From assembly GCA_029974835.1 (NCBI GenBank), contig JARKQN010000022.1, positions 1 through 64,000 of the forward strand: a DNA stretch of 64,000 nt, read 5' to 3'. Position 1 is the stretch's first letter. Every line of letters starts with the position of its first letter. Source of the DNA: Bacteroidales bacterium (lineage in GTDB: Bacteria > Bacteroidota > Bacteroidia > Bacteroidales > VadinHA17). The translations under genes and the position numbers were made by a program. Shown piece after piece: positions 47,603-64,000 of this stretch. Under the pieces are notes generated by a model that did no database searches, had not been told where the DNA came from, and worked only from the letters and a program-made list of their open reading frames with translations.

Positions 47603-48391
47603 TCATTCCCTGTTGGAGCGGGGTCCTCTTATGACGCCTCTTTCAGAGTTACGGAAAAATTCAAGTATGTAATCCCTGTCGGGCGATTGTGCGAAGTTTT
47701 TCTGCACATATTCAAGGGCTGCTGAAGTGTTCATTCCGCTCTGGTAAATAGCCCTGTATATGTTATGAATCTCTTCCATTCTTTCCTTTGAGAATCCTCT
47801 GCGTGTAAGACCAACAGTATTTATGCCCATATACGCGAGAGGTTCCCTGTCGGCCTTAATAAACGGCGGCACATCAATTCTCACTCTGCCTCCGCCTCCG
47901 ATAATCACATGCCCGCCTATCCTTGAAAACTGGTGTACAAGCGAACCTCCGCTTATAATAGCCCAGTCGTCAACTTTTACCTCTCCTGCAAGGCCGGTGG
48001 TATTGCCTATGATACAGTTGTTTCCTATCTGGCAGTCGTGTCCGATATGCACATAAGCCATCAGAAGGCAGTTGTCGCCTACAACAGTTTTTCCAACCGA
48101 TGCTGTTCCCCTGTTGACGGTTGCGCCTTCTCTTACGGTGGTGTTGTCTCCTATTTCAGCTGTTGTTTCTTCTCCCCTGAATTTGAGATCCTGGGGTATT
48201 CCTGAGATGGTGGCACAGGGGAAGATCCTGCAGTTACGGCCGATTCTTGCGCCTTCGAGAACGACTGCATGAGGACCGATCCATGTTCCGTCTCCTATTA
48301 CTACATTTCCCGCGATGTATGCAAAAGGTTCAACAACCACGTTTTCGCCAAGCACGGCGTCGGGATGAATGAAAGCCTGACCGGATATCAT
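47603..48391 (-). CDS. lpxA: UDP-N-acetylglucosamine acyltransferase LpxA
   Basis: First step of lipid A synthesis, moving an acyl chain from ACP to UDP-GlcNAc. A left-handed beta-helix of hexapeptide repeats spans ~1-185. The catalytic His is in LMAYVHIGHDCQIGN. The C-terminal helical domain has the family block MGINTVGLTRRGFSKE. 262 aa. It is the last gene of the lpxD-lpxC/fabZ-lpxA operon, 7 bp after lpxC. Confidence 0.95.
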   Translation of the reverse strand: MISGQAFIHPDAVLGENVVVEPFAYIAGNVVIGDGTWIGPHAVVLEGARIGRNCRIFPCATISGIPQDLKFRGEETTAEIGDNTTVREGATVNRGTASVGKTVVGDNCLLMAYVHIGHDCQIGNNCIIGNTTGLAGEVKVDDWAIISGGSLVHQFSRIGGHVIIGGGGRVRIDVPPFIKADREPLAYMGINTVGLTRRGFSKERMEEIHNIYRAIYQSGMNTSAALEYVQKNFAQSPDRDYILEFFRNSERGVIRGPRSNRE

Positions 48392-48398
48392 AAGCTGC

Positions 48399-49793
48399 TT
48401 ATTTATTCTTTATTACCTGCGCAACCATTTCACCTTCAACGACAAGGTTGTTACCCACAAAAGCCTGTCCGTACATTGCCACAATGCCGCGGCGCAGAGG
48501 TTCGGTAAGTTCCATTTTAAGCAGAAGGGTGTCGCCCGGAACTACCTTGTGCTTAAACTTGAGTTTATCGATTTTGAGAAAATAGGTTGAATATTTTTCA
48601 GGTTCGTCAACACCGCTGAGCACCAGTAATCCGCCTGTCTGGGCGAGAGCCTCGACAATGAGTACGCCCGGCATGATGGGTTCTCCGGGGAAGTGTCCCT
48701 GGAAAAATGCCTCATTTCCCGTCACATTTTTTAATCCCACAACCTTGTTTTCATCAAGACTTATAATTTTGTCGACAAGGAGGAAAGGATACCGGTGCGG
48801 CAGTCTTTCCTTTATCTGTTCTATGTTGTACACAGGCGGCTGAGACGGATCATACACAGGCACGTCTTTTTTCGATTGTGTCTTTTTGATTTCCTGCCTT
48901 ATGATTTTTGCAAGGCGGGTGTTGGCATAATGCCCCGGCCTGGTGGCAACAACCTTTCCCTTGATGGGCTGGCCGACGAGAGCCAGATCGCCGATGAGGT
49001 CGAGAAGTTTATGGCGTGCAGGCTCGTTGGGAAATCTCAGTTCTGTATTGTTGAGGATTCCTGCCTTATGGCTGTTGATGCCGGGCCTGTTAAACAGTTT
49101 TGCAATACGGTCAAATTCTTCCTGCGAAGCCTCCTTTTCAAGTATCACTATTGCATTATCGAGGTCTCCTCCCTTTATTAGCCCGGCCTTGAAGAGCGGT
49201 TCCAATTCGTGAAAAAACACAAAAGTGCGGCACTGGCTAATCTCCTTCTCAAACTGGTCGATGGTATCTATTATCGCGTACTGGTTGCCGAGTATCCTTG
49301 AGTTGTAGTCAATTAAAACATTGATGCTGAAGTGATCGTCGGGATACACTATGAGGTCAACCCCGTGTTCCTCGTCGGAAAATACAATTTTCTGCCTGAC
49401 CTGAAAATAATTACGGTCCTCCTTCAGTTCAACTATTCCGGCCTCTTTAATCGCTTCCACAAATTTATGGGATGAGCCTCCCATTATCGGGGCTTCAGGT
49501 CCGTTAAGTTCGATGAAAGCGTTATCAATTTTAAGTCCGCTTAGAGCTGCCAGCACATGTTCGATTGTTGAAACGGAGGCTCCGTTATGAGACAGGGTTG
49601 TACCGCGTGATGCTTCAGTCACATAATCGGCAAGAGCGTCTATTACGGGCTGGCCCGGCAGGTCGGTCCTGATGAATTTATAACCGTTGTTGGCCGGGGC
49701 GGGTTTAAATGTAATTGTTACATTTATTCCGGTATGGAGTCCTTTGCCAGACAGAGTGGCTTCGCGTGCAAGAGTTCTTTGTTTTTCAGACAT
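48399..49793 (-). CDS. lpxC/fabZ: Fusion: UDP-3-O-acyl-GlcNAc deacetylase LpxC and FabZ dehydratase
   Basis: 464 aa. LpxC is residues ~1-305: EHVLAALSGLKIDN with the zinc His, and HKAGILNNTELRFPNEPARHKLLDLIGD with the second His, Asp and catalytic residues. A short linker (~306-318, YDPSQPPVYNIEQI) leads to FabZ at ~320-464 with its active site GHFPGEPIMPGVLIVEALAQ. It couples lipid A commitment to fatty acid dehydration. This fusion is characteristic of Bacteroidota. Confidence 0.96.
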   Translation of the reverse strand: MSEKQRTLAREATLSGKGLHTGINVTITFKPAPANNGYKFIRTDLPGQPVIDALADYVTEASRGTTLSHNGASVSTIEHVLAALSGLKIDNAFIELNGPEAPIMGGSSHKFVEAIKEAGIVELKEDRNYFQVRQKIVFSDEEHGVDLIVYPDDHFSINVLIDYNSRILGNQYAIIDTIDQFEKEISQCRTFVFFHELEPLFKAGLIKGGDLDNAIVILEKEASQEEFDRIAKLFNRPGINSHKAGILNNTELRFPNEPARHKLLDLIGDLALVGQPIKGKVVATRPGHYANTRLAKIIRQEIKKTQSKKDVPVYDPSQPPVYNIEQIKERLPHRYPFLLVDKIISLDENKVVGLKNVTGNEAFFQGHFPGEPIMPGVLIVEALAQTGGLLVLSGVDEPEKYSTYFLKIDKLKFKHKVVPGDTLLLKMELTEPLRRGIVAMYGQAFVGNNLVVEGEMVAQVIKNK

Positions 49794-49890
49794 CAGATTT
49801 TATTTTTCCGGTACAAAAAAACAAATTTTTTTTCGAACAAAAACCGGGTACAAGTCATGATACCTGCATTTTTCAATGAAAAAGTTCGAA

Positions 49891-50928
49891 TTAACCGTTT
49901 TTAAGTTTCTCTATTTCCTTTTTCAGGTTATCTGCAAGTGAGCTTAATTCGGGCAGTTTTCTGTAATAGACAAATGATTTCATAAACTGCCTGTGTTCCA
50001 TGGCAGGGGAGCCGACCATTATTGCATTTTCTTCCTTAATATCTCCTATTACACCCGCCTGGGCACCAAGTTTCACGCCATCGGCCACTCTGAGATGCCC
50101 TGCAATACCGACCTGCCCGCCGAACATGCAGTTACGGCCTATTTTTGTGGAGCCTGCTATTCCGGTCTGACCCGCCATCACGGTGTTTTCGCCAATTTCA
50201 ACATTATGGCCTATCTGGACCAGATTATCAATTTTCACTCCTTTCCTGATAATGGTTGATCCCATTGTAGCCCTGTCGATTGCCACATTGGCACCTATTT
50301 CAACGTTATCTTCAAGCACCACGTTGCCTATCTGTGGTATCTTCATAAACTGGTTATCGCTCTGGGGGGCAAATCCGAAGCCGTCGCTTCCTATAACTGT
50401 GCCGGCATGTATAATACAGTTATTGCCGATAACACATTCGTGATAGATTTTCACACCCTGGTAAATTATGCAGTTGCTGCCTACACTTGTATTGTCGCCG
50501 ATATAAACCTGGGGATACACTTTTGAGCCGTTGCCTATTTTTGATCCTGCCCCGATAAATGCGTAGGCTCCTATATAAACGTTTTCACCCACCGTAGCTC
50601 CTTCCTCGATTATTGCCGTGGGATGTATCCCGGTTTTTTCAGGCCGTGCCTTTGCCACCAGGGTAAGAAGAGAGGCAAATGCCTCATAGGCGTTCTCAAC
50701 CCTTATCAGCGTGGCGTTTACCTTTTCTGAAGGAACAAAACCTTTGTTGACAAGAACCACTGATGATTTTGTGGTGTAGAGGTACTGTTCATATTTTGGA
50801 TTGGACAGGAATGAAAGAGCTCCCTCCTTCCCTTCCTCAATTTTTGCGATTGTATTCACTTTTACCTGAGGGTTGCCCTCAATTTCACCGTTCAGAAAAC
50901 GGGCTATTGCTTCAGCTGTAAATTCCAT
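49891..50928 (-). CDS. lpxD: UDP-3-O-acylglucosamine N-acyltransferase LpxD
   Basis: 345 aa. The N-terminal uridine-binding domain (~1-95) is followed by a long hexapeptide beta-helix (~100-315) with catalytic His in QIGHNVEIGENTVMAG, and a C-terminal helix ending NLKKEIEKLKNG. It adds the second acyl chain in lipid A synthesis. It lies 12 bp after the HD gene and 97 bp before lpxC. Confidence 0.95.
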   Translation of the reverse strand: MEFTAEAIARFLNGEIEGNPQVKVNTIAKIEEGKEGALSFLSNPKYEQYLYTTKSSVVLVNKGFVPSEKVNATLIRVENAYEAFASLLTLVAKARPEKTGIHPTAIIEEGATVGENVYIGAYAFIGAGSKIGNGSKVYPQVYIGDNTSVGSNCIIYQGVKIYHECVIGNNCIIHAGTVIGSDGFGFAPQSDNQFMKIPQIGNVVLEDNVEIGANVAIDRATMGSTIIRKGVKIDNLVQIGHNVEIGENTVMAGQTGIAGSTKIGRNCMFGGQVGIAGHLRVADGVKLGAQAGVIGDIKEENAIMVGSPAMEHRQFMKSFVYYRKLPELSSLADNLKKEIEKLKNG

Positions 50929-50940
50929 AATATAAGGTCT

Positions 50941-52197
50941 TTAAACACATTCTTTGGGATAACATAAATAATATCTGGTAACGGGTTCTTTAACAGGCCG
51001 GCGGCTGACCATCTCGGACAATTCGTTAATGCCGGCAGTCCCACCCGATTTGAGAAGAATTCTCAGATCATCCTTATCGTCCGGTGCGTACGCCAGGTTA
51101 AGAACCCTGCCCGAGAAGACGTAATAATCCTCCATCCCGGGAGGTACTTCAAGCTTCTCCGCGAGTTTTTCTTTTATTTGTTTAATTCTTCTGTCAGGAA
51201 CAGGTTTATCCTGGATTTCCGTTGCGAGAAGGTTCCGGCTCAGAAGTCTGCACGAGAGGTCTGCAAGCACCCGGTCCGAATCATCGCACCAGTATTTGGC
51301 TGCCACAAGAATATCGGAGTCGTCGAGTTTAACAAAATGTGATGCAACAATTCCCGGCGTGAAGAGTCCGTTACCTGTAAGGTCATCCGGGCCAATCCTG
51401 TTACTGAGAAAGAATTTGAGCGAGGGTGTGCAAAAGAGGTCTTTCCCCGATTCGGCAAGCTCCTTGGCTCTTCGCAGAAGGTTTGCCAGAAGCGTTTCGG
51501 AGGAGATGACTGTCTTGTGCATATAAACCTGCCAGTACATGAAACGGCGGGCGACAAGCAGTTTCTCAATTGAATAAATTCCTTTCTCTTCAATGGCAAG
51601 ACGGTCTCCGGAAACATTGAGCATACTGATAATTCTGTCCGAACCTACCGATCCCTCTATCACACCGGTATAAAAGCTGTCGCGGTTGAGGTAATCGAGC
51701 CTGTCCATGTCGGCCTGGCCTGCAATGAGTTCATGAAAGAATCTTCTGTGGTAGCTGCCGGTGAAGATTTCTATTGCCAGCGAAAGTCTGCCGCCGAATT
51801 CGAGATTAAGTTTTTTCATCAGCAGCAGTGAAATGTCTTCGTGGGTAATTCCCTTAACTATCGACTCTTCAAGTGCATGTGAAAACGGGCCATGGCCTGC
51901 ATCGTGAAGCAGGATTGCCGCCAGCGATGCTTCCTCCTCCTCAGGAGATATTTCAACGCCTTTGCCCTTCAGTGTCTGGAGAGCCAGGTTCATCAGATGC
52001 ATGGCTCCCAGGCAGTGCTGAAACCTTGTATGCACCGCACCCGGGTATACATAACTTGTGAGACCCAGCTGCCTTATATTGCGAAGACGCTGAATCCAGG
52101 GATGCTGTATAAGGTCGAACAGAAACTCTCCGGGAATATTAATGAAACCGTAAACCGGATCATTTATTATTTTTCTCTTATTGATCTGATAGCTCAA
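50941..52197 (-). CDS. HD-domain hydrolase (dNTPase-like)
   Basis: About 418 aa. The HD motif runs RFQHCLGAMHLM, LLHDAGHGPFSHALE (the HD pair) and LDYLNRDSFYTG (last Asp), as in SAMHD1/dGTPase-like enzymes. The start is uncertain: no ATG lies near the N-terminus. The track's TTG at 52218 sits inside the -7 box TATTTTTG (52216-52223), so it cannot be the start. A TTG at 52197 (LSYQINKRKIIND) is the best choice, giving a leader of ~13 nt. It heads the lipid A operon. Confidence 0.85.
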   Translation of the reverse strand: MSYQINKRKIINDPVYGFINIPGEFLFDLIQHPWIQRLRNIRQLGLTSYVYPGAVHTRFQHCLGAMHLMNLALQTLKGKGVEISPEEEEASLAAILLHDAGHGPFSHALEESIVKGITHEDISLLLMKKLNLEFGGRLSLAIEIFTGSYHRRFFHELIAGQADMDRLDYLNRDSFYTGVIEGSVGSDRIISMLNVSGDRLAIEEKGIYSIEKLLVARRFMYWQVYMHKTVISSETLLANLLRRAKELAESGKDLFCTPSLKFFLSNRIGPDDLTGNGLFTPGIVASHFVKLDDSDILVAAKYWCDDSDRVLADLSCRLLSRNLLATEIQDKPVPDRRIKQIKEKLAEKLEVPPGMEDYYVFSGRVLNLAYAPDDKDDLRILLKSGGTAGINELSEMVSRRPVKEPVTRYYLCYPKECV

Positions 52198-52215
52198 CAG
52201 ACTGGATTTAATACA

Positions 52216-52223
52216 CAAAAATA
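52216..52223 (-). promoter_or_regulatory. HD-lpxD operon -7 box (TATTTTTG)
   Basis: The minus strand reads TATTTTTG, matching TAnnTTTG, 18 nt upstream of the TTG proposed as start. No -33 element at the usual distance. Confidence 0.5.
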
Positions 52224-52420: not shown

Positions 52421-53314
52421 ATGAAAATCGAAATCCGCAATTTAAATAAGGTTTATCCGAACGGCAATCAGGCTCTGAAAAACCTAAATATTGATATAGA
52501 GCCCGGGATATTTGGATTGCTCGGGCCCAACGGTGCGGGGAAATCTTCTCTTATGAGGATACTGGTAACTCTGATGAAGCCTACCTCCGGTGTGGTTCTG
52601 CTCGACGGGAAAGATATTCAGAATCACCGCAGGGAACTGAGGAGCATCCTTGGGTACCTGCCGCAGGATTTCCGGTTTTTCACTTCGCTTAAAACATGGG
52701 AGTTTCTTGATTATTCGGCTGCCCTTGCCGGCATGAAAAACCGTAAAGAGCGTCTGAGGGAAGTTGACAGGATGCTTGACCAGGTAGGTTTGCTCGAAGT
52801 GCGCGACAGAAAAGCCAACAGGTTATCGGGAGGTATGAAAAGGCGTCTTGGAATTGCACAGGCTCTGATAGGAAACCCAAAACTTATTATTGTGGACGAG
52901 CCTACAACAGGGCTCGATCCCGACGAAAGAATCAGGTTCAGGAATATCCTCTCGGGGCTAAGCCAGAACGACGTAATTATCATACTTTCAACCCACATTG
53001 TTGGTGATATATCATCAACCTGTCAGAAAATGGCTTTGCTTAACAAGGGTGAGATTGTATTTTCAGGGCGTCCTGAGGCACTGGTCGGAGAAGCGAGGGG
53101 ACATGTTTACAGGCTGCACCTCACCGAATACGAATTCGAAAAGGCAAAAGAGGAATATAACATAATTTCAACCATACCGGTCGAAACCGGCTGGGAAGTG
53201 CAGGTTGTGACCGACACCCCTCCCGACGGCAATGCGGTACTTATAGAACCAAATATAGAACACGCGTATGTATATTATATGGAGCACAAAATTCACGCTG
53301 ACTTAAACATTTAA
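52421..53314 (+). CDS. ABC transporter ATP-binding protein
   Basis: 297 aa. Walker A is GPNGAGKSS (~35-43), the signature is LSGGMKRRLGIAQAL (~137), and Walker B with D-loop is LIIVDEPTTGLDPDERIR. LSTHIVGDISSTC is the H-loop. It pairs with the permease 12 bp downstream and heads the export cluster. The long C-terminal arm (~225-297) beyond the core is common in this subgroup. Confidence 0.93.
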   Translation: MKIEIRNLNKVYPNGNQALKNLNIDIEPGIFGLLGPNGAGKSSLMRILVTLMKPTSGVVLLDGKDIQNHRRELRSILGYLPQDFRFFTSLKTWEFLDYSAALAGMKNRKERLREVDRMLDQVGLLEVRDRKANRLSGGMKRRLGIAQALIGNPKLIIVDEPTTGLDPDERIRFRNILSGLSQNDVIIILSTHIVGDISSTCQKMALLNKGEIVFSGRPEALVGEARGHVYRLHLTEYEFEKAKEEYNIISTIPVETGWEVQVVTDTPPDGNAVLIEPNIEHAYVYYMEHKIHADLNI

Positions 53315-53326
53315 CATTCAGACAGT

Positions 53327-56300
53327 ATGGCCTTCCTGCATAATATTCTGACAGTCTCGCACTATGAAGCCAAAACACTCAGGAGAAGCTGGTTCTTCAG
53401 GCTGTTTTCAATAGTAGCCCTCTTCTTCCTTACAATAATCAACATCAGTATGTTCTCTCCTGTCGGAGGCGATTCCTGGGAGTTAATTTCAATTCCCTCA
53501 TCGGTACCGCTGATCAACCTTTACCTTCTTAATATCGGACAGGCCATTGTTGTGATCTTTCTCGCTTCGGATTTTCTTAAGAAGGACAAGAAACTCGATA
53601 CCAATGAAGTTCTCTATACCAGGTCAATGTCAAATTTTGAATATGTTTCAGGGAAAACATGGGGAATACTCAGGCTTTTCCTTTCGCTTAACCTGGTGGT
53701 ACTGCTTATCGGCCTTACCGTTAATATCATAAATAAATCAATGAAGGTAGACTTAATGTCTTACCTTGAATATATTCTTCTCATTTCCGTCCCCACAATA
53801 GTATACAGCCTTGGACTTGCATTCATGCTTATGCTTCTTATCCGGAACCAGGCTGTCACATTCTTCATCCTGCTGGGTTACGCAGCGCTTAACATGTTTT
53901 ACCTGTGGCACAGGGCGGGTTCTGTTTTCGATTTTATGGCTTTTGGTCTCCCCCTTTTCAAGTCGGGGTTGATCGGTTTTGAGAACCCGGCAGCCATCAT
54001 CTTCCAGAGGCTTATATACTTCTTCGCCGGAACAGCACTGATAATGGCGACTATTTTGATGTTCAGGAGACTGCCTCAATCGAGGCTGCAGAGGAGCGTT
54101 GCCTTTGTTCTTATGGTTTTGTCGGTTGCAGGATTCGGATACTCACTCTTTTATACAGTTGAGAACTACACGAAAAGTGCAGCCCTCAAAAGGCAGGTAA
54201 TCGAGACCAACAGGCAGTACGAGAAATCAAATTTCCCCTCGGTGATAAAATCCGATATAAACCTTATCCACAAAGGCAGCATCATTGAAGCCACAGCCGG
54301 CATGATAATTAAAAATGACAATGACGTTCAGATTAATGAATACCTCTTCTCTCTTAACCCCGGACTGGAGGTAAAATCGGTACAAAAGAACGCAAAACCC
54401 GTTGCTTTCACCACATCCGGCCATATTGTCAAAGTTTCTCCTGACAAGCCGCTTCTGCCCGGAGAATCCGATACGATAGAGATATCGTGGTCGGGAAAGA
54501 TCATTGAGTCGTTCTGCTATCCCGATTACAGCGATAATATAAAAGAATACAGGTACCGCATCCAGATGGTCAATGTAAGGAAGAGACAGGCATTTCTTGA
54601 TAAAGATTACGTGCTTCTGACACCCGAGGCTCACTGGTATCCGGTGGCAGGGCTTAATTACTATCCTTCCAATCCGGGAAGGATAAAGATTGATTTCACG
54701 ACCTTTTCACTGAAGGCTAAGAGCGAGACCGGGCTTAATGTTGTATCTCAGGGACTGCCGTCGGTAAGCGGTGATTATACCAGTTTCTCGGCCGGCTTTC
54801 CGCTTACAGGGCTCAGCGTGGCTATGGGGAACTACGTTGCCGATACAATCAGTGTTGATTCAATAAAGTTTATCTCGTGGCACTATCCCGGGAATGACTA
54901 TTACAGGGAGCAATTCAGGGAGCTGAAAGACACCCTGCCGAACATAATCTCAGGTTTTATGAAGGATCTGGAGTCGGGATTCGGCACTCCTTATCCTTTC
55001 AGATCATTCAGCATTCTGGAATCACCCGTGAATTTCTATTCATTTCCCAAAAGAAATACACAGACAAGGGCTGAAGTCCAGCCGTCCATGGTTATTGTAC
55101 CTGAGAAACTATCCACTATCAGGCAGGCAGGATTCGCCAAAAGGTTTGAGAGACAGAAAAAACAGATGGCCAGGAACAACCAGGTCATTACAGACAGAGA
55201 CCTGAATGTAAGGATTCTGAATAACTTTCTCAGAAGCACTTTCATAAGCGGCTTTACAGTAACGGCATTTAATATTCCCCTTCTGAATGAACCAACAAGG
55301 TATCAGTTGGGGCCAAGCTTCTATTTTTTCCGCAACAATTTCTATTCGGATAAATATCCTGTTGTCAATTCTGTTTTTGAGTCACATCTGCAGAAGCTTA
55401 ACACTCCAGGTCCTCCGGGAGGCGGGCCTGACCGGATCAGCGGTAATATCTCAGACAACGACATGGCAAACCTTATCTTACGTGACATCAGTTTCCGTGA
55501 TCTTCTGGCGCGCAATCCGTCGCCCGACACGCTGCGTGTTGTTCTGACCATCAAGGGTGATTACCTCTTTAACCTGCTCAGGATGAATGCAGGAATAACA
55601 GAATTTAATGAATGGTTCAAAAAATACCTCAGCGAAAACAGCTTCACCAGGGTAAATATCTTAAAGTTCAATGATGACGTTAAGAAACGGTTCGGCTTCG
55701 AATTCTATCCTCTCCTGGAAGAATGGTTTACAGGAAAAGGGCAGCCGGGATTTCTGTTCACGGATCCTGAAGCAAGCCAGGTTGTAGTGGGAGAAAGGAC
55801 CAGATACAACGTTACATTTATTGCCGGAAATCCGGAGCCGGCAGGCGGGTTGTTTAACATATCATTCCGTACCGGCGGAGGCTTTGGAGGCAGAGGAGGA
55901 GGAGGCCAGGCTATTTTTTCCATGACCATCCAGGGCGGCCGGGGCGGCGGAGGCGGAGGCCGGATGATGCAGATCTCAATGCAGGGCAGGGGAATGGAGA
56001 GTGCCGACATCTCGAAAATTGTTTACCTGGGCCCCGGCGAAGCAAAGAAAATAGGAATTGTTCTTGACAACCAGCCCCGGGCCATGCAGATTAATACCCT
56101 GTTTTCGAAAAATATTCCGGGAGATATTTCCATGACTATCCAGGAGATTAAAAAGGCCCCTCCACGTACCGCTCCTTTCGAAGGCGAACTGCTTCTGGAA
56201 AAAATGCCCTTATTCACCGACCCTGAAGAGATAATTGTGGATAATGAGGATGAAGGTTTTATCACCTCAACGGTTACAGAAACGAACAGGCTCCGAAAAC

Positions 56301-56869
56301 TCCTTGGAGTAAAAAGAAGTACCGGAACCGTATACCAGTCTGTCAACCTGTTTATGGCCCCCGATTACTGGCAGCCCGTCGTACTATCCTCATATTATGG
56401 CAGGTACGCACGTTCGGCTGTCTATACCAGGGCCGGCGAGGGCGACAAAAGCGTGACATGGAAAGGAATTATCAGGGAACCCGGTTATTATGATGTCTAT
56501 GCCTATGTGGGGAAAGCCGGCGACAGGATAATGATAAGAGGAGTAGGCGGGCCTATGGGCAGAGGTCCGGGAGGCGGGCCGGGCGGAGCACCAGGCGGAG
56601 CACCGGGCGGAGCACCGGGAACACCTCCGGCCGGACAGGGTGGCCAGGGAAGAACCCGTGAACAGAATCCTTACCGTGACATGCATTACAAGGTATACCA
56701 CGACGACGGAGTTGAAGAAATAGTGCTCGACTGGGAAACCGCCGATCCGGGATGGAACAGGCTCGGAACCTACTACCTCTCGCCCGACACGGTTAAAGTG
56801 GAACTGAACAACAAAACCGAAGGCAGGGTGGTCATCGGCGACGCAATTAAATGGGTAATCAAGAAATGA
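53327..56869 (+). CDS. ABC permease fused to an M1-peptidase-like domain and a golvesin-C-like domain
   Basis: 1180 aa, far longer than an ordinary ABC-2 permease. Residues ~20-285 hold about seven TM helices. Residues ~290-830 resemble the M1 aminopeptidase fold, but GAMEN is replaced (SILESPVNFYS) and no HExxH zinc motif exists, so peptidase activity is unlikely. A Gly-rich stretch (GGGFGGRGGGG, ~850-890) follows. The end (~1030-1180; YYDVYAYVGKAGDR, NPYRDMHYKVYHDDG, GWNRLGTYYLS, NKTEGRVVIGDAIKWV) looks like the golvesin/xanthan-lyase C-terminal domain. It is interrupted by a second Gly/Pro-rich loop (~1078-1107) coded partly by a 12-bp tandem repeat. Confidence 0.85.
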   Translation: MAFLHNILTVSHYEAKTLRRSWFFRLFSIVALFFLTIINISMFSPVGGDSWELISIPSSVPLINLYLLNIGQAIVVIFLASDFLKKDKKLDTNEVLYTRSMSNFEYVSGKTWGILRLFLSLNLVVLLIGLTVNIINKSMKVDLMSYLEYILLISVPTIVYSLGLAFMLMLLIRNQAVTFFILLGYAALNMFYLWHRAGSVFDFMAFGLPLFKSGLIGFENPAAIIFQRLIYFFAGTALIMATILMFRRLPQSRLQRSVAFVLMVLSVAGFGYSLFYTVENYTKSAALKRQVIETNRQYEKSNFPSVIKSDINLIHKGSIIEATAGMIIKNDNDVQINEYLFSLNPGLEVKSVQKNAKPVAFTTSGHIVKVSPDKPLLPGESDTIEISWSGKIIESFCYPDYSDNIKEYRYRIQMVNVRKRQAFLDKDYVLLTPEAHWYPVAGLNYYPSNPGRIKIDFTTFSLKAKSETGLNVVSQGLPSVSGDYTSFSAGFPLTGLSVAMGNYVADTISVDSIKFISWHYPGNDYYREQFRELKDTLPNIISGFMKDLESGFGTPYPFRSFSILESPVNFYSFPKRNTQTRAEVQPSMVIVPEKLSTIRQAGFAKRFERQKKQMARNNQVITDRDLNVRILNNFLRSTFISGFTVTAFNIPLLNEPTRYQLGPSFYFFRNNFYSDKYPVVNSVFESHLQKLNTPGPPGGGPDRISGNISDNDMANLILRDISFRDLLARNPSPDTLRVVLTIKGDYLFNLLRMNAGITEFNEWFKKYLSENSFTRVNILKFNDDVKKRFGFEFYPLLEEWFTGKGQPGFLFTDPEASQVVVGERTRYNVTFIAGNPEPAGGLFNISFRTGGGFGGRGGGGQAIFSMTIQGGRGGGGGGRMMQISMQGRGMESADISKIVYLGPGEAKKIGIVLDNQPRAMQINTLFSKNIPGDISMTIQEIKKAPPRTAPFEGELLLEKMPLFTDPEEIIVDNEDEGFITSTVTETNRLRKLLGVKRSTGTVYQSVNLFMAPDYWQPVVLSSYYGRYARSAVYTRAGEGDKSVTWKGIIREPGYYDVYAYVGKAGDRIMIRGVGGPMGRGPGGGPGGAPGGAPGGAPGTPPAGQGGQGRTREQNPYRDMHYKVYHDDGVEEIVLDWETADPGWNRLGTYYLSPDTVKVELNNKTEGRVVIGDAIKWVIKK
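56581..56616 (+). repeat. Three 12-bp tandem repeats (GGGCGGAGCACC type) in the permease gene
   Basis: GGGCGGAGCACC, AGGCGGAGCACC, GGGCGGAGCACC at 56581-56616 encode the repeated GGAPGGAP segment. In-frame slippage would change the loop length without breaking the frame. Confidence 0.85.
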
Positions 56870-56887: not shown

Positions 56888-58378
56888 ATGAAAAACTATT
56901 TTAAAAAATGCTGCCTTAAAAAAACGGCTCTTTTCTCCGTTTTCTTTTGCATTTCGCTGGCAGTAGTGTCACAAAAAGCAATAACCCTCGAAGAGGCCCT
57001 GAAAGTGGCTGAATCGAACAGCCCTTCAATGAAAAGGACCAGGCTTAACCTGATTCGCAGCCAGGAAAACCTTAACGCTCAGAATGCCGCTCTTAAATCA
57101 AACTTTTCACTTACAATAAATCCAATCGGATATACCCAGAGCAGGGAATTCAATGATCTTATATCAAAATGGAATTCACGGAATACGACCGAGAGTTACG
57201 GGATGTTTACCGTCACCCAGCCTATACTTTTTACCGATGCAAGAGTATCGCTTGTCAACAGGTTCGGCTACAAGGATTCATACAGTGAATTCACAAACAC
57301 CACGACGAAAGGCTTCAGCAACAACCTTTCCATAAGTCTCGACCAGCCTCTCTTTACATATAACCGTACAAAAATGCAGCTTAAACAGTTGCAGCTGTCG
57401 CTTGAAAATGCACAGCTGAGTTATGCACTGCAGCTGCTGTCGCTCGAAAAACAGGTTACACAGGCATTTTACTATGTTTATCAGCAGCAGCAGAGCCTTG
57501 AGATTGCAAGACAGGCATTCGTAAACATGCAGCAAAGCTATGAGATATCGAAAAACAAGGTTGACGCCGGACTATCGGCAAGGGAAGAGATGTTCCAGGC
57601 AGAGCTGAACCTCGCCACCACCAAATCGGATTATGAAAATAAGCAGGTCGCTTTTGAGAATGCCAAGGACGACTTCAAGGTCCTTATCGGAATGAGCCTT
57701 TATGAGGATTTCAATGTACTTCCCAATATTGCGGTAGATACAATACCCATCGACGTATCCTTTGCCATTGAACACGGTCTTAAAAACCGGATGGAACTGA
57801 GACAGAGGGAAATCACCATCGAGAACTCACAGTTCGACCTCATACAGACAAAAGCACTGAACGAATTCAAGGGATCTCTCGGATTATCAGTAGGCCTATT
57901 CGGAGACAATGAAAAATTCGACAAGGTTTACGCCAACCCCACCGACAACGAATCTGTCTCCCTGCAGCTTACAATTCCCTTGTGGGACTGGGGAGAAAAG
58001 AAATCTAGGATAAAAGCCTCGGAGGCTTCCCTGGAATCGAACAGGGTTTCCCTCGATGAAGAAGAAAACAATGTAATCCTGGGCATAAGAAAAATATACC
58101 GTAACCTTATAAATCTGCAGAACCAGATCGAAATTACAAAGAAATCCATAACAAATGCACAACTGACATATGATCTGAATCTTGAAAAATACAAGAACGG
58201 GGATCTCACAGGTATGGATCTGAACATCTACCAGAACCAGCTTTCGGAGAAGCAGCTTTCATACACAAATGCCCTTATATCATACAAGCTGGAACTGCTG
58301 AACCTCAAGATACAGACGTTGTATGACTTTGAGAAAAAAGAGCCTGTTTCACCGGTAATGACAATAGAAAACAACTGA
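56888..58378 (+). CDS. TolC-family outer membrane efflux protein
   Basis: 496 aa with a signal peptide (~1-29). Two OEP repeats of long coiled helices and short beta segments are visible: ITLEEALKVAESNSPSMKRTRLNLIRSQENLNAQ and the second SYALQLLSLEKQVTQAFYYVYQQQQSLEIARQAF. The outer-membrane channel of a tripartite exporter. It lies 18 bp after the permease, so it is probably the same operon. Confidence 0.92.
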   Translation: MKNYFKKCCLKKTALFSVFFCISLAVVSQKAITLEEALKVAESNSPSMKRTRLNLIRSQENLNAQNAALKSNFSLTINPIGYTQSREFNDLISKWNSRNTTESYGMFTVTQPILFTDARVSLVNRFGYKDSYSEFTNTTTKGFSNNLSISLDQPLFTYNRTKMQLKQLQLSLENAQLSYALQLLSLEKQVTQAFYYVYQQQQSLEIARQAFVNMQQSYEISKNKVDAGLSAREEMFQAELNLATTKSDYENKQVAFENAKDDFKVLIGMSLYEDFNVLPNIAVDTIPIDVSFAIEHGLKNRMELRQREITIENSQFDLIQTKALNEFKGSLGLSVGLFGDNEKFDKVYANPTDNESVSLQLTIPLWDWGEKKSRIKASEASLESNRVSLDEEENNVILGIRKIYRNLINLQNQIEITKKSITNAQLTYDLNLEKYKNGDLTGMDLNIYQNQLSEKQLSYTNALISYKLELLNLKIQTLYDFEKKEPVSPVMTIENN

Positions 58379-58407: not shown

Positions 58408-59463
58408 ATGAAAAAGAATCTTCTGCCAATAACCGCTGCTCTGATTATGCTTATCCCGGCCTGCAGGAACCAGGAACAGGGATTGACGGCCGATGTCGAG
58501 ATACCTGTAACCGTTGAGGATATAAGCCTCAGATCAATAGAAGAATACGTAAGCACTACCGGGACAGTATATCCAAAGGGAGAAATAACCCTGAAATCAA
58601 AAATAACGGCTGCTTACTATCTCGAGAAGAATCCCCAGACCGGGAGACAGTGGCAGCTGGGCGACAGGATCAGGGCAGGGGCCCTTATTGCCCGCCTGGA
58701 GGACAGGGAGTTTGTACTCTCAATAAAACTCGAAACAAGCGAACTTAATCTTGAGCTTGCCGAAAGCGAACTGAAAAAACAGGAATCCCTTTATGAGAAA
58801 GGGGGTATAACCCTCAAGGACCTTAAGACAGCCAGCATAAACTATGAGAATGCAAAAACAACCGTTGAGAATGCACGTTTGCAGCTCGAAAAGACACGAA
58901 TTGTCGCACCGATCGAAGGCGTGATTGTTGAACTTCCGTATTACACACAGGGGACACAGGTTGACCAGGGTTCAGTGATAGCAAAAATAATGGATTACCA
59001 GACCATGTATATGAATGTTCAGCTTCCCGAAAAATATGCCGGCACGGTTAAACCCGAACAAAATGTAAAACTGACAAATTACACAATACCCAATGATACA
59101 CTGTATGGAAAAGTTACGCAGATTTCCCCTGCAATAAATGCCGATACAAGAACCTTCCAGGGAGTTATAACAGTAAATAACCCTCAATTGCTCCTGAGGC
59201 CCGGGATGTTTGTGAAGGCAGACATAGTAACAAGGAGGAAAGATTCTGTAATTGTAATACCCCGGAGCATAATCCTTTCACGGCAGAGAGGAAAGACAGT
59301 GTTCGTTGTAGACCGCGGGCTTGCGGTTGAAAGGATTATTGAGACCGGCCTCGAGAACCTCACCGAAGCTGAAGTAGTAAGAGGACTGAACAGAAACGAG
59401 CGCATTGTCACCTCAGGTTTCGAAACGCTCAGCAACAGGTCGAAGGTAAAAATCGTCAGATAA
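58408..59463 (+). CDS. Periplasmic adaptor (membrane fusion protein), lipoprotein
   Basis: 351 aa. Lipobox LIPAC (Cys ~19). Barrel-sandwich hybrid and alpha-hairpin regions follow (TSELNLELAESELKKQESLYEKGGITLKDLKTASINYENA), then beta-barrel (VAPIEGVIVELPYYTQGTQVDQGS) and the membrane-proximal domain. It links the RND pumps to TolC. Only 4 bp separate it from the first RND gene. Confidence 0.93.
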   Translation: MKKNLLPITAALIMLIPACRNQEQGLTADVEIPVTVEDISLRSIEEYVSTTGTVYPKGEITLKSKITAAYYLEKNPQTGRQWQLGDRIRAGALIARLEDREFVLSIKLETSELNLELAESELKKQESLYEKGGITLKDLKTASINYENAKTTVENARLQLEKTRIVAPIEGVIVELPYYTQGTQVDQGSVIAKIMDYQTMYMNVQLPEKYAGTVKPEQNVKLTNYTIPNDTLYGKVTQISPAINADTRTFQGVITVNNPQLLLRPGMFVKADIVTRRKDSVIVIPRSIILSRQRGKTVFVVDRGLAVERIIETGLENLTEAEVVRGLNRNERIVTSGFETLSNRSKVKIVR

Positions 59464-59467
59464 TATC

Positions 59468-62400
59468 ATGAATAAGATAGCACGGTTTGCAGTTAACAAT
59501 CCCGTCACGGTTCTGATGCTTGTGGCAGGAATAGTCCTGCTGGGTTTTATTTCCTTCGGCAAGCTTGGCACTGACCTCTTCCCGAACCTCAACAACCCGA
59601 AAATTTATGTTGAGCTTAAGGCAGGTGAGAAACCTCCCGAGGAAATTGAGAAGAATTTTGTTGACCAGATCGAGTCTCTGGCATTAAGGCAAAACGGGGT
59701 TGTGGATGTATCTTCCTCCACCACCAACGGGAAAGCTTCCATTACCGTTGAGTATGAATGGAAAAAGGATATGGATGAGGCCTTCCTCGATCTGCAGAAG
59801 GAACTGAATTCTTTTGCCCAGAACTCTTCCATTGAGGATTTTACCATAACCCAGTACGACCCAAATTCCGCCCCCGTTATGGTGGTCGGACTGAAAAATG
59901 ACCGGATCACCAATATGGATGAACTCCGGAAGGTCGCTGAAAACTACATCAGGAATGAACTCATCCGTATTGACGGTGTGGCGGATGTAAAACTGTCGGG
60001 TAAGGAAGAAAGTGAAATCGTAATTGAAACAAGCAAGTATATACTTGAATCCTACGGAATTACATCCGACGCAATAGCTTCGCAGATAAGCAATTACAAC
60101 CGAAACGTTTCAGGCGGTTCGATTGTTGACATGGGAACCAAATATGTGGTAAAGGGGGTAAGCGTGCTTAAGGATATCTCCGACCTGCAGAATATAATCG
60201 TGGGTTTTAAACAGGTTTCTTCATCAGCTTCGGCCACTCAGGCATCCCAGACTTCATCCAGAGTGCCCGTTTACCTTAAGGATGTTGCAAAGATCTACTA
60301 TGCCAACAAGGAACCCGAAAATATTGTAACAATCAACGGGGAGAGATGCATCAGTCTGTCGGTCTACAAGGAACCGAAGTACAATACCGTTGAGGCTGTC
60401 AGAAAGCTTAAGAATGAATTTGAGATTCTTTCAAAAGCACTTCCCGGTTACGAGTTCATTTATATCCAGGACCAGGGCACATACATCAGCAGTGCCATTT
60501 CCGAAGTCCGCGACACTGCCCTTCTGGGCATACTGCTGGCCGTAATAATTATTTACGTATTCCTCAGGCGTATCGGCACCACTCTCGTAATAAGCCTTGC
60601 AATACCCATTTCGATCATTGCAACCTTTAATCTGATGTACTTCAATCACCTTACAATAAACATTATGACTCTTGGAGGGCTCGCCCTGGGAGCAGGTATG
60701 CTGGTTGACAATGCGATTGTGGTGCTGGAAAACATTACGAGGAACCGCGAGGAAGGTATGCCGTTCATTGATTCTGTTATTACCGGTACCGGCCAGGTAG
60801 GCGGAGCAATCACTGCCTCCACGATTACCACGATAGTGGTTTTCCTGCCTATTGTATACCTTCACGGAGCTTCGGGCGAACTGTTCAAGGACCAGGCGCT
60901 CACTGTGGCATTCGCTCTCATATCTTCACTCTTTGTCGCCCTTCTTGTTATCCCCATGCTTGTCTCCTCACTCTTCAGGGAGAAGAAAGAGGCTGAGAAT
61001 CTGGCATCGCCGGTGAAATTCGGATGGTACAAAAAAGTCCTTGCAGGGATACTTGAAAGAAAAACAACAGTGGTAATTCTTGCATTTGTCATTATGGCTG
61101 CCACTGCCCTGCTGATTCCAAAACTGGGAAGTGAATTCATGCCAAAGGCGGAATCGTCCGAATTCACGGTTGAACTAAAACTGCCTGAAGGAACCAGCCT
61201 TGAAAGAACGGCGTCCACCGCCGGAATGACGGAGAATATTATCAGGGAAATCCTTGGCGAAAAAATAAAACTAATTTACACACAGGCCGGAATAACAGGG
61301 ACATCAGCTTACACCCAGGCAGATGTCAATGAAGGTGAAAATAAGGCTTCCCTGAAGATAATCCTTGATGAAAAGTACACCTCACAGACTGACGAGGCGA
61401 TGAAACTCATTGAGGGTTTTATCAAAAACATACCGGATGTTGAAGTCACATTCTCAAGAGAGGAAACAGCCCTTCAGACATCCCTCGGGACGACCGGCTC
61501 GCCATTTGCCCTTGAAATCTCGGGTAGCGACTACGCGGAGATAGAAAAAATCCTGAGTCAGTCAAGGGAAATCCTGGAAGATTCCGAATCACTTTACAAT
61601 TTCACCACTTCGCTTGATGAAGGAAATCCTGAGGTTGAGGTGACAATCGACAGGTTCAGGACGAGTTATTACAATGTAACCGTTGAGAGTGTGGTTAACC
61701 AGGTTAAGAGCTACCTTTCGGGTGCCCAGGCCGGAAGCTTTGAGAAGGAAGGGGAGATGAAAGATATTACAGTAAAACTGGAAGATATAAGCCTGAACCA
61801 GCTCAAAGACCTGATGATAACAGCAGGCTCCGTAAAAGTGCCGTTGAGCGAAATTGCAGCTATAAAAATCGTAAAAAGCCCGAGAGAAATTACCCGGCAT
61901 AATCAGTCAAGGACAGCTTACCTCTATGCAATGGTAAAAAAGAATGTTCCGTTCGACCAGGTTGTTAAACATGCACAGGAAGCCCTGAAAGTGATAAGCC
62001 TGCCTCCCGATTACAGGATCACTTTCACTGGAGAGGAGATGAAACGAAAGGAATCGATGGCAAATCTTTCCTTTGCCCTTCTTCTTGCAGTGGTGCTGGT
62101 GTTTATGGTTCTTGCCGCGCAGTTTGAATCACTGATTCAGCCTTTTGTTATTATGTTAACAATACCGCTGGCTGGCGCCGGAACCATTCTTACTTTCCTG
62201 ATTCTTGGCAAATCTCTTAATATGATGGCCTATATCGGAATAATAATGCTTGGAGGTATTGCCGTCAACAATGCAATCATTCTTATCGACCGTATTAACC
62301 AGCTAAGGGAAAGCGGCCTTGGAAAAAGAGATGCCATTCTGACAGCCGGTACTCAAAGGATAAGGCCAATTATTATGACTAGTCTTACCACCATACTGGC

Positions 62401-62578
62401 CCTCCTGCCCCTTACGCTGGGTATCGGAGAGAGTGCCTCACTCAGATCACCAATGGCAATTGCAGTCATCGGCGGGCTCTTCACTTCCACATTACTTACG
62501 CTTGTTGTCATACCCTGCTTTTACTGGATAATCGACAGTGCCGGGGCATTCCTTACCGGGAAACAGTCTGAAGCTTAA
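59468..62578 (+). CDS. RND-family efflux pump, inner membrane subunit 1
   Basis: 1036 aa, the usual length. TM1 is at ~12-32. Porter-domain segments appear in both halves, and a TM4 proton-relay Asp lies in LGAGMLVDNAIVVLENITRNREEG. The second-half TM block is VNNAIILIDRINQLRESG with RPIIMTSLTTILALLPL. It exports a substrate through the adaptor and TolC, driven by protons. The substrate is unknown. Confidence 0.95.
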   Translation: MNKIARFAVNNPVTVLMLVAGIVLLGFISFGKLGTDLFPNLNNPKIYVELKAGEKPPEEIEKNFVDQIESLALRQNGVVDVSSSTTNGKASITVEYEWKKDMDEAFLDLQKELNSFAQNSSIEDFTITQYDPNSAPVMVVGLKNDRITNMDELRKVAENYIRNELIRIDGVADVKLSGKEESEIVIETSKYILESYGITSDAIASQISNYNRNVSGGSIVDMGTKYVVKGVSVLKDISDLQNIIVGFKQVSSSASATQASQTSSRVPVYLKDVAKIYYANKEPENIVTINGERCISLSVYKEPKYNTVEAVRKLKNEFEILSKALPGYEFIYIQDQGTYISSAISEVRDTALLGILLAVIIIYVFLRRIGTTLVISLAIPISIIATFNLMYFNHLTINIMTLGGLALGAGMLVDNAIVVLENITRNREEGMPFIDSVITGTGQVGGAITASTITTIVVFLPIVYLHGASGELFKDQALTVAFALISSLFVALLVIPMLVSSLFREKKEAENLASPVKFGWYKKVLAGILERKTTVVILAFVIMAATALLIPKLGSEFMPKAESSEFTVELKLPEGTSLERTASTAGMTENIIREILGEKIKLIYTQAGITGTSAYTQADVNEGENKASLKIILDEKYTSQTDEAMKLIEGFIKNIPDVEVTFSREETALQTSLGTTGSPFALEISGSDYAEIEKILSQSREILEDSESLYNFTTSLDEGNPEVEVTIDRFRTSYYNVTVESVVNQVKSYLSGAQAGSFEKEGEMKDITVKLEDISLNQLKDLMITAGSVKVPLSEIAAIKIVKSPREITRHNQSRTAYLYAMVKKNVPFDQVVKHAQEALKVISLPPDYRITFTGEEMKRKESMANLSFALLLAVVLVFMVLAAQFESLIQPFVIMLTIPLAGAGTILTFLILGKSLNMMAYIGIIMLGGIAVNNAIILIDRINQLRESGLGKRDAILTAGTQRIRPIIMTSLTTILALLPLTLGIGESASLRSPMAIAVIGGLFTSTLLTLVVIPCFYWIIDSAGAFLTGKQSEA

Positions 62579-62592: not shown

Positions 62593-64000
62593 ATGGATTT
62601 CATTATCAAAAGAAAGGTCCTCATCAGCATGCTCTTCCTGGGGCTATCCATCCTGGGATACATTTCGTACCAGAGGCTTCCTGTTGAGCTTTTCCCGAAC
62701 GCCGAACTGCCCAATCTCATTGTCCAGGTATCCACCCCGCTTGAAATGGATCCGGCTTACATTGAAAGTCAGGCTGTGATACCTCTTGAAGGGGCCATCG
62801 GCACACTTGAGGGAGTGGAAAAGATAGAATCCAACATCACTTCCCGGAGCGGTACAATCGTTATCTATCTAACGCAGAAGGCTGACATCAAATACAGCAA
62901 TCTGAAGCTGCAGGAAAAGATTAACCTTGTCAGAAGTTCAATACCTGAGGAGTTTGTGATAAATGTGATCAGGGTGGATCTTGAACAGCTTACGGGTCAG
63001 TTTATGGAACTGCAGGTAAGAGGAGAAGGAGGTACTGACCGGATAAGAAACATAGCCGACCGTGATATCAGACCCGAATTCGAAAATCTTGACGGCATAG
63101 CAGGAGTGGAGGTTTTTGGCGGGCAGGAAAACTCCATTGAGGTAAGGCTTAATGAAAGAGCCTGCAAGGCTTATGGAATTACCATGAACCAGGTGCGAAA
63201 CCTCCTGAACAATAATTCCGGAAATAAGATATTTACAGGCCGTGTAACCGACGGCACGCAAAAATACTTTGTTAACATAACATCCGAATACACAGATGTT
63301 TCTGAGATCGGGAATATCACAGTCAAACAGGATGGCCCTGTACTTCTGAAAGATATTGCTGAAATATTCTTCGGAGTCAAGGAGCAGACTTCATACAGCA
63401 GGATTAATGGTCTTGACGCGGTGACCATCAACCTTGTGAACGACAATCAGGCCAATATAATTGACCTGGCCCGCCGAACCAGGGCCCTTGTGCATTCTTT
63501 TAACAAAAGACTTAAAGCTCTTGGTGTCGAAATAGTTATTCAGAACGACACGACAGAGGTGATGGAACGCAATATCAACCAGATCATTAACCTCGCTCTC
63601 ACCGGAGGCATCCTTGCCGTCATTGTCCTCTGGTTCTTCCTGCGCAACCTGCGACTGGTTACAGTGATTGCGTTGTCAATACCTGTTTCGGTTTACACCG
63701 CCTTTAATTTCTTTTACGGTGCCGGGATAACCATAAACAGTCTCACGCTGGTGGGCATGGCCCTGGCCATCGGTATGCTGGTCGACAACTCGGTTGTGGT
63801 TCTTGAGAATATCTACCGTCTCTCAGGACAGGGCTTAAAGGCGGAAGATGCCGTAAAAAGCGGCACCACCGAAGTAGTGAAAGCCGTTATAGCTGCTACC
63901 CTTACTACTGTAACAGTATTCCTGCCCTTTGTCTTTTCTTCCAACTTCATGATAAAGATGATTGGCAAGAACATCGGGGTGTCGATAATATCCACCCTTT
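62593..64000 (+). CDS. RND-family efflux pump subunit 2, partial (runs off the window)
   Basis: Absent from the ORF track because it has no stop before the window ends. The frame from ATG 62593 is open to 64000, giving 469 residues that begin MDFIIKRKVLISMLFLGL. Visible are TM1, the first porter region (RLPVELFPNAELPNLIVQVS), TM2-TM3 (LALTGGILAVIVLWFF, VTVIALSIPVSVYT) and the TM4 Asp motif GMALAIGMLVDNSVVVLENI. It lies 14 bp after subunit 1. Two tandem RND genes with one adaptor recall heteromeric MdtBC-like pumps. About 550 residues lie beyond the edge. Confidence 0.93.
   Translation, partial: MDFIIKRKVLISMLFLGLSILGYISYQRLPVELFPNAELPNLIVQVSTPLEMDPAYIESQAVIPLEGAIGTLEGVEKIESNITSRSGTIVIYLTQKADIKYSNLKLQEKINLVRSSIPEEFVINVIRVDLEQLTGQFMELQVRGEGGTDRIRNIADRDIRPEFENLDGIAGVEVFGGQENSIEVRLNERACKAYGITMNQVRNLLNNNSGNKIFTGRVTDGTQKYFVNITSEYTDVSEIGNITVKQDGPVLLKDIAEIFFGVKEQTSYSRINGLDAVTINLVNDNQANIIDLARRTRALVHSFNKRLKALGVEIVIQNDTTEVMERNINQIINLALTGGILAVIVLWFFLRNLRLVTVIALSIPVSVYTAFNFFYGAGITINSLTLVGMALAIGMLVDNSVVVLENIYRLSGQGLKAEDAVKSGTTEVVKAVIAATLTTVTVFLPFVFSSNFMIKMIGKNIGVSIISTL

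Follow-up and report, generated by a model that had tools for sequence, protein, structure and literature searches.

A conserved operon encoding an ABC permease with M1-like and golvesin domains and an RND–ABC fusion: a candidate double-energised exporter

The protein considered here, permease A, is encoded by an open reading frame (ORF) at positions 53327-56869 on the forward strand of a 64,000-nucleotide window (the whole stretch of DNA analysed, positions 1 to 64,000 of contig JARKQN010000022.1, assembly GCA_029974835.1) from a bacterium of the order Bacteroidales (VadinHA17). In a single chain it joins an ABC-2 type (ATP-binding cassette) permease domain, a domain with the fold of M1 aminopeptidases in which the zinc site is lost, and a Golvesin_C domain. 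The gene belongs to a conserved operon that also encodes a tripartite pump of the resistance-nodulation-division (RND) type, and in this pump one of the RND permeases is fused to an ABC ATPase. We assign a probability of about 0.5 to the reading that permease A is part of a double-energised exporter, in which an ABC-2 transporter and the RND tripartite pump act as one machine. The RND–ABC fusion is arguably more striking than permease A, the protein first flagged.

The permease A gene has an ATG start and an intact reading frame of 1180 aa, a length that is kept among its relatives. On its own the sequence has a sole match in Pfam, to Golvesin_C (PF25275, E 7e-11; score 42.7 bits, cut-off 31.6); neither ABC2_membrane_2 nor Peptidase_M1 is matched, and searches of PDB and NCBIfam with the single sequence returned nothing convincing. 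Among 28 aligned orthologues, ABC2_membrane_2 was matched by 18, Peptidase_M1 by 11 (best E 1e-6) and Golvesin_C by 27, the exception being a fragment truncated at a contig end. An AlphaFold2 model made from the alignment (mean predicted local distance difference test, pLDDT, 80.6; predicted template modelling score, pTM, 0.75) contains an N-terminal amphipathic helix and seven membrane helices within residues 1-300 (53327..54226), the long helices running to residue 298 and being followed by beta-rich and helical domains. Counted off from an N-terminus on the inside, the seven helices would put both the M1-like part and the golvesin part on the periplasmic side. For the M1-like part (residues ~303-849; 54233..55873), a PDB search with the family profile retrieved many M1 aminopeptidases, from E 3e-5. 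When the model was compared with PDB structures by Foldseek, M1 enzymes accounted for all 50 of the matches listed (probability 1.0, best E 2e-15), with a TM-score of up to 0.60 normalised to a two-domain M1 enzyme of Deinococcus; this confirms the M1 fold. Over the golvesin region (residues ~966-1177, with an approximate start; 56222..56857), the same family profile picked up xanthan lyase 6f2p at its C-terminal domain (E 6e-8). An earlier note, made from the letters of this DNA, had called an ABC permease, an M1-like fold lacking HExxH and a golvesin-C-like domain, and these matches bear out each part of that description.

The zinc site was located by a profile alignment (hhalign) of the permease A family with one-chain ABC/M1 fusions that retain an intact HExxH motif (probability 98.3, E 2e-14). 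This alignment sets the register of the site and places HExxH opposite residues R624-D-L-N-V628 (55196..55210). Across 111 orthologues, which include some contigs reached twice via two collections, the position of the first motif His is never occupied by His and that of the second only once; H...H is absent from the whole zinc-helix region (residues 600-665) of every orthologue, and no other column near the site has His in at least 40% of the sequences. A look for active HExxH in relatives, which the earlier note had proposed as a check, therefore found the pair in none of these orthologues. Three HExxH strings that occur elsewhere in the orthologues fall outside the aligned site and are ascribed to chance. 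In favour of an active peptidase whose metal site has gone unrecognised, one could cite the residue opposite the catalytic Glu, which is acidic in 108 of the 111 orthologues. With the His pair missing throughout and no substitute His-rich column nearby, such an enzyme is highly improbable and, on the 111 orthologues, can be set aside; the acidic residue may reflect structure and not catalysis. Because no orthologue carries the HExxH His pair, the M1 part is, as judged from its sequence, a pseudopeptidase.

The golvesin part is probably sugar-binding, by analogy with Bacteroides lectins, in which a golvesin-type domain binds glycans (PMC9166713). The two Gly-rich loops singled out in the earlier note, at residues 851-893 (55877..56005) and 1066-1113 (56522..56665), are real as stretches, the second being inserted in the golvesin domain and interrupting it. 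Both are predicted to be disordered (pLDDT <50, with blocks at ~25-35), and neither is conserved: their length in the orthologues ranges from absent to ~100 residues longer. A function for the loops was rejected since they are variable or absent in orthologues, and they are best seen as expandable linkers. Thus, of the suggestion that the protein threads or exports a polymer or peptide, threading by the loops finds no support, whereas a role in export is plausible, the more so in view of the conserved operon.

Permease A is the second gene of a strict seven-gene operon, a conserved neighbourhood of the kind that the earlier note had thought worth looking for, with the order ATPase A, permease A, TolC, HlyD, RND1, RND2–ATPase B, permease B, all on the forward strand. 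ATPase A (297 aa; 52421..53314; Pfam ABC_tran, E 5e-33) ends 12 bases before permease A and has intact Walker A, signature, Walker B and H-loop motifs in its translation. Permease A is followed by a TolC-family outer-membrane factor (496 aa; 56888..58378; Pfam OEP, E 4e-48), a HlyD-family periplasmic adaptor (351 aa; 58408..59463; NCBIfam RND_mfp, E 8e-57, above cut-off) and the MdtB-like RND permease RND1 (1036 aa; 59468..62578; Pfam ACR_tran, E 1e-219), for which the best PDB match is MdtB 9lyq (E 7e-93). The RND2–ATPase B gene starts at 62593 and runs out of the window (62593..64000) to contig position 67353; two bases further, at contig positions 67356-68057 and thus beyond the window, lies permease B (233 aa), which is ABC-2-like with weak Pfam matches below cut-off. 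From ATPase A to RND2 the genes are separated by 12, 18, 29, 4 and 14 bases.

The order from ATPase A to RND2 is kept in ~100 loci. In loci holding both members of a pair, the two genes lie close together in 100/101 cases for ATPase A and permease A, 98/99 for permease A and TolC, 89/91 for TolC and HlyD, and 85/86 for HlyD and RND1. Adjacency of RND1 and RND2 was scored in 74 of 86 loci, a figure depressed mostly by truncated loci where RND1 was all that the RND2 query picked up. The RND tripartite set is complete, with its ACR_tran, RND_mfp and OEP matches in conserved order. Comparison of the flanking genes of the loci revealed no gene beside the seven that is conserved across clades, and candidates for additional operon members were dismissed on this basis.

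RND2 and ATPase B form one ORF of 1586 aa (contig 62593-67353; L165:593-5353), laid out as ACR_tran (residues 2-1029), extra membrane helices and ABC_tran (residues 1306-1448). All 16 loci for which sequence was fetched far enough contain the fusion as a single ORF of 1536-1640 aa with permease B next to it; it measures 1454-1584 aa in all eight named genomes that were searched whole, and it is also visible in 50 named loci whose sequence ends within the gene. In one locus (L116) the frames are broken at the fusion gene. The motifs of ATPase B are invariant and intact. Its start, 'I.NLVKIYDR', resembles the usual first strand of such ATPases, and is separated by ~180 residues with four predicted helices from the stretch 'PFKAL.GVS.EI..GMFGLLGPNGAGK'. 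In the AlphaFold2 model of ATPase B (pLDDT 79, pTM 0.54) strands occupy residues 78-90 and helices residues 92-260, the remaining strands following from residue 268. As a working hypothesis drawn from this model, a four-helix membrane segment may be inserted within the nucleotide-binding domain of ATPase B, after its first strands. Foldseek matched ATPase B to NosF, LptB and ABCA proteins.

The linker of 260 aa between RND2 and ATPase B served as a marker of the fusion. In a sample of 396 genomes of the phylum, the linker and full-length permease A orthologues were found in exactly the same six genomes, our own included. Of the 198 genomes sampled from the order, 26 had strong permease A matches (E <1e-20), again counting the genome of the window, and in 22 genomes of this sample the linker and permease A occur together. 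In the permease-only genomes (G409, G529, G574 and G579) the contigs end before the expected start of the linker, and of the linker-only genomes one is 61% complete and the other matches only marginally, at E 8e-4. The pairwise distances between permease A sequences follow those of ATPase A (correlation 0.95), RND1 (0.97), HlyD (0.93) and TolC (0.92); the compared genes are all linked, and much of the correlation reflects the descent that the genomes have in common.

A scan of GTDB genomes with the permease A alignment as query yielded at least 499 relatives; scanning contigs with the single permease A sequence had given no matches. A one-off fusion or an assembly artefact is ruled out by these relatives together with the 30 further genomes of the two samples. 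Taxonomy was taken from the best 80 of the at least 499 matches, which are mostly from Bacteroidales, including many isolates of Prolixibacteraceae, and extend to bins of KSB1, Krumholzibacteriota, Melioribacteraceae, Calditrichota and Latescibacterota. Cultured carriers are Mariniphaga anaerophila DSM 26910, Prolixibacter bellariivorans ATCC BAA-1284 and Sunxiuqinia elliptica. The locus is patchy, because a genome of the same genus in the order sample (G505) is without permease A. One genome carries, in addition to a full operon, a second copy of permease A (L074; G570:C45); a search of the 18 kb retrieved around this copy turned up none of the operon partners.

Several comparisons bear on how the two ABC halves might pair. 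Within its own genome, ATPase A has ATPase B as its highest-scoring paralogue, at 221 bits versus 140 for the next. When ATPase B was matched against eight named genomes, the ~300-aa ATPase located 12-15 kb upstream ranked directly behind the fusion in seven; in the eighth it was one of two near-equal matches. Permease A aligned to the one-chain ABC/M1 fusions best at their second permease domain (E 6e-19, probability 99.1), with E 9e-10 for the first, while permease B aligned to domain 1 with E 4e-5 and probability 70 and to domain 2 with E 1e-3 and probability 19. Taken together, these similarities are suggestive of ATPases A and B driving permeases A and B as a heterodimer. As for the RND proteins, the proton relay of AcrB consists of D407, D408, K940, R971 and T978 (PMC8277102). 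With the register set by motif, the first Asp of transmembrane helix 4 and the Arg and Thr of transmembrane helix 11 are invariant or nearly so in RND1 and RND2, the D408 position is mostly Asn, and that of K940 is Asn or Ser. A proton-driven cycle of RND1 and RND2 is plausible.

In the double-energised exporter that we propose as the most economical account, ATPases A and B would power a heterodimer of permeases A and B, and this ABC unit would as a consequence be covalently tied to the RND trimer. The unit would lift an amphiphilic substrate, most likely a glycosylated or peptidic lipid, from the cytoplasm or the inner leaflet; the zinc-less M1 cleft could take the substrate and hold its extended chain uncut, and the golvesin domain may bind a sugar or a surface glycan. 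The substrate would then be handed to RND1/RND2–HlyD–TolC and exported across the outer membrane. With the substrate passing the ABC unit and then the RND–HlyD–TolC pump, ATP and the proton gradient would act in sequence. In favour of this machine stand the strict gene order, the preserved RND2–ATPase B fusion with permease B behind it, the joint occurrence of linker and permease A, the similarities between the two ABC halves, the intact motifs of both ATPases, the missing His pair of the M1 part and the glycan binding of golvesin-type domains in Bacteroides lectins. Some of our observations weigh against such a machine. The match of permease B to domain 1 of the ABC/M1 fusions is weak (probability 70). 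The genome encodes another RND protein that is closer to RND1 (389 bits) than RND2 is (346), which leaves a heteromeric RND trimer without special support. The position of AcrB K940 is Asn or Ser, not Lys, in both RND proteins, and the second permease copy in G570 stands without operon neighbours. Moreover, we infer physical contact, substrate and activity, and with them the pairing, the hand-over and the order of the steps, from genes and models.

Other arrangements of the same parts have been weighed. The ABC unit might be a sensor or mechanical driver in the manner of MacB or NosDFY, its pseudo-M1/golvesin part sensing peptides or surface glycans while the RND pump is gated or timed by motion that ATP drives. 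Such a role would be in keeping with a large non-catalytic domain in the periplasm, with the resemblance of the ATPase B model to NosF, LptB and ABCA proteins, and with the covalent link of an ATPase to RND2; two full ATPases and two ABC-2 permeases are, however, more than a gate needs, and no conserved regulator gene adjoins the operon, which makes this arrangement unlikely. The operon could alternatively encode two separate, co-regulated pumps, the RND2–ATPase B fusion merely fixing stoichiometry or position. Each half indeed has a complete set of parts and an orphan permease copy exists (L074), but no locus with sufficient intact sequence lacks the fusion and the two halves co-occur almost perfectly, and we consider this arrangement rather unlikely.

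The ABC exporter of O-antigen, Wzm/Wzt, provides a comparison for a part that recognises carbohydrate. An exporter of glycans or glycolipids along these lines, with the golvesin domain recognising the carbohydrate and the M1 shell serving as a scaffold, would account for the ABC-2 fold and for the similarity to Golvesin_C and xanthan lyase. It would also have a precedent among lectins (PMC9166713). Since neither a glycosyltransferase nor any other glycan gene is kept next to the operon across clades, we judge it quite improbable. The coupled ABC–RND exporter remains the reading to which we give even odds.

The surroundings of the operon are less constant. Divergently upstream, at window positions 47603-52218 on the reverse strand, lie lpxA, lpxC-fabZ, lpxD and an HD-domain gene; a link with lipid A was rejected, as only the closest relatives, a single clade, keep the lpx genes next to the operon. 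A TetR-like gene, a possible regulator, is found upstream of ATPase A near the start of the operon in four loci (L127, L137, L140 and L153). Downstream, on the reverse strand, an ORF of 2076 aa (L165:13689-19919) was recognised by eye as what we take to be a SprA-like protein of gliding and type IX secretion. The ATPases of the operon are not the gliding-motility protein GldA, scoring 191.6 and 172.1 bits against an NCBIfam GldA cut-off of 402.6.

All parts of the operon belong to known superfamilies. No NCBIfam model reaches its cut-off for permease A or for the RND2–ATPase B fusion, and we found no curated family that describes the RND–ABC fusion or the hundreds of permease A relatives. In the open-licence texts searched, subscription papers and preprints lying outside that search, no paper on the RND–ABC fusion or on permease A was found, and the open-licence literature on golvesin, ABC/M1 fusions and permeases with inactive peptidases yielded background papers only. 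The impression of the earlier note that the architecture is new holds in so far as no curated family model names it; on the other hand, there are hundreds of relatives, as well as a sister architecture that bears HExxH. ABC and RND exporters are normally regarded as alternative engines of tripartite pumps. Physical coupling, if confirmed, would make this a new class of exporter; two energy sources could then be coupled in one trans-envelope machine, and the hand-over of substrate from ABC to RND would become testable. That the operon represents a new class of cell-envelope exporter, with covalently joined ABC and RND units driven by ATP and the proton gradient and with a dead peptidase and a lectin-like domain as relay, is a tentative proposal, which we would sooner doubt than assume.

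Among known and related systems, one-chain fusions of two ABC permease domains with an HExxH-intact M1 domain occur in other Bacteroidota (L007, L012, L016 and similar loci) and have ~1100-1250 aa; no paper describing them was found in the open-licence literature. From their sequences they are apparently the active cousin of the pseudopeptidase permease A. Like it, they carry an M1 domain behind an ABC-2 permease domain, but they possess two permease domains and an intact HExxH and are devoid of golvesin, whereas permease A has one permease domain, no zinc site and an added golvesin domain, its second permease being a separate gene. With pumps of the MdtABC and AcrAB type the operon shares TolC, a HlyD-type adaptor and two tandem RND permeases. 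Unlike these pumps, it has an RND2 that continues into membrane helices and an ABC ATPase, and it holds a further ABC ATPase and two ABC permeases.

MacAB-TolC is similar in that ABC energy is tied to an adaptor and TolC (PMC5985334). MacB itself makes up the inner-membrane part of the conduit, whereas the operon has separate RND proteins and permeases of the ABC-2 type. NosDFY is an ABC-2 transporter that works with a periplasmic protein, NosD, which is a separate protein. The likeness to it lies in the fold of ATPase B, which matches NosF (28-29% identity, probability 1.0); the difference is that the periplasmic part encoded by the operon is an M1/golvesin fusion and that an RND pump is attached. 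Finally, the C-terminal domains of golvesin and xanthan lyase, which are characterised members of the Cbeg4/5 lectin domain family (PMC9166713), and the Bacteroides lectins Cbeg4/5 are of the same or a related type as the C-terminal domain of permease A. Elsewhere this domain is carried by secreted enzymes and lectins, whereas permease A, an ABC permease, bears it at its periplasmic end.

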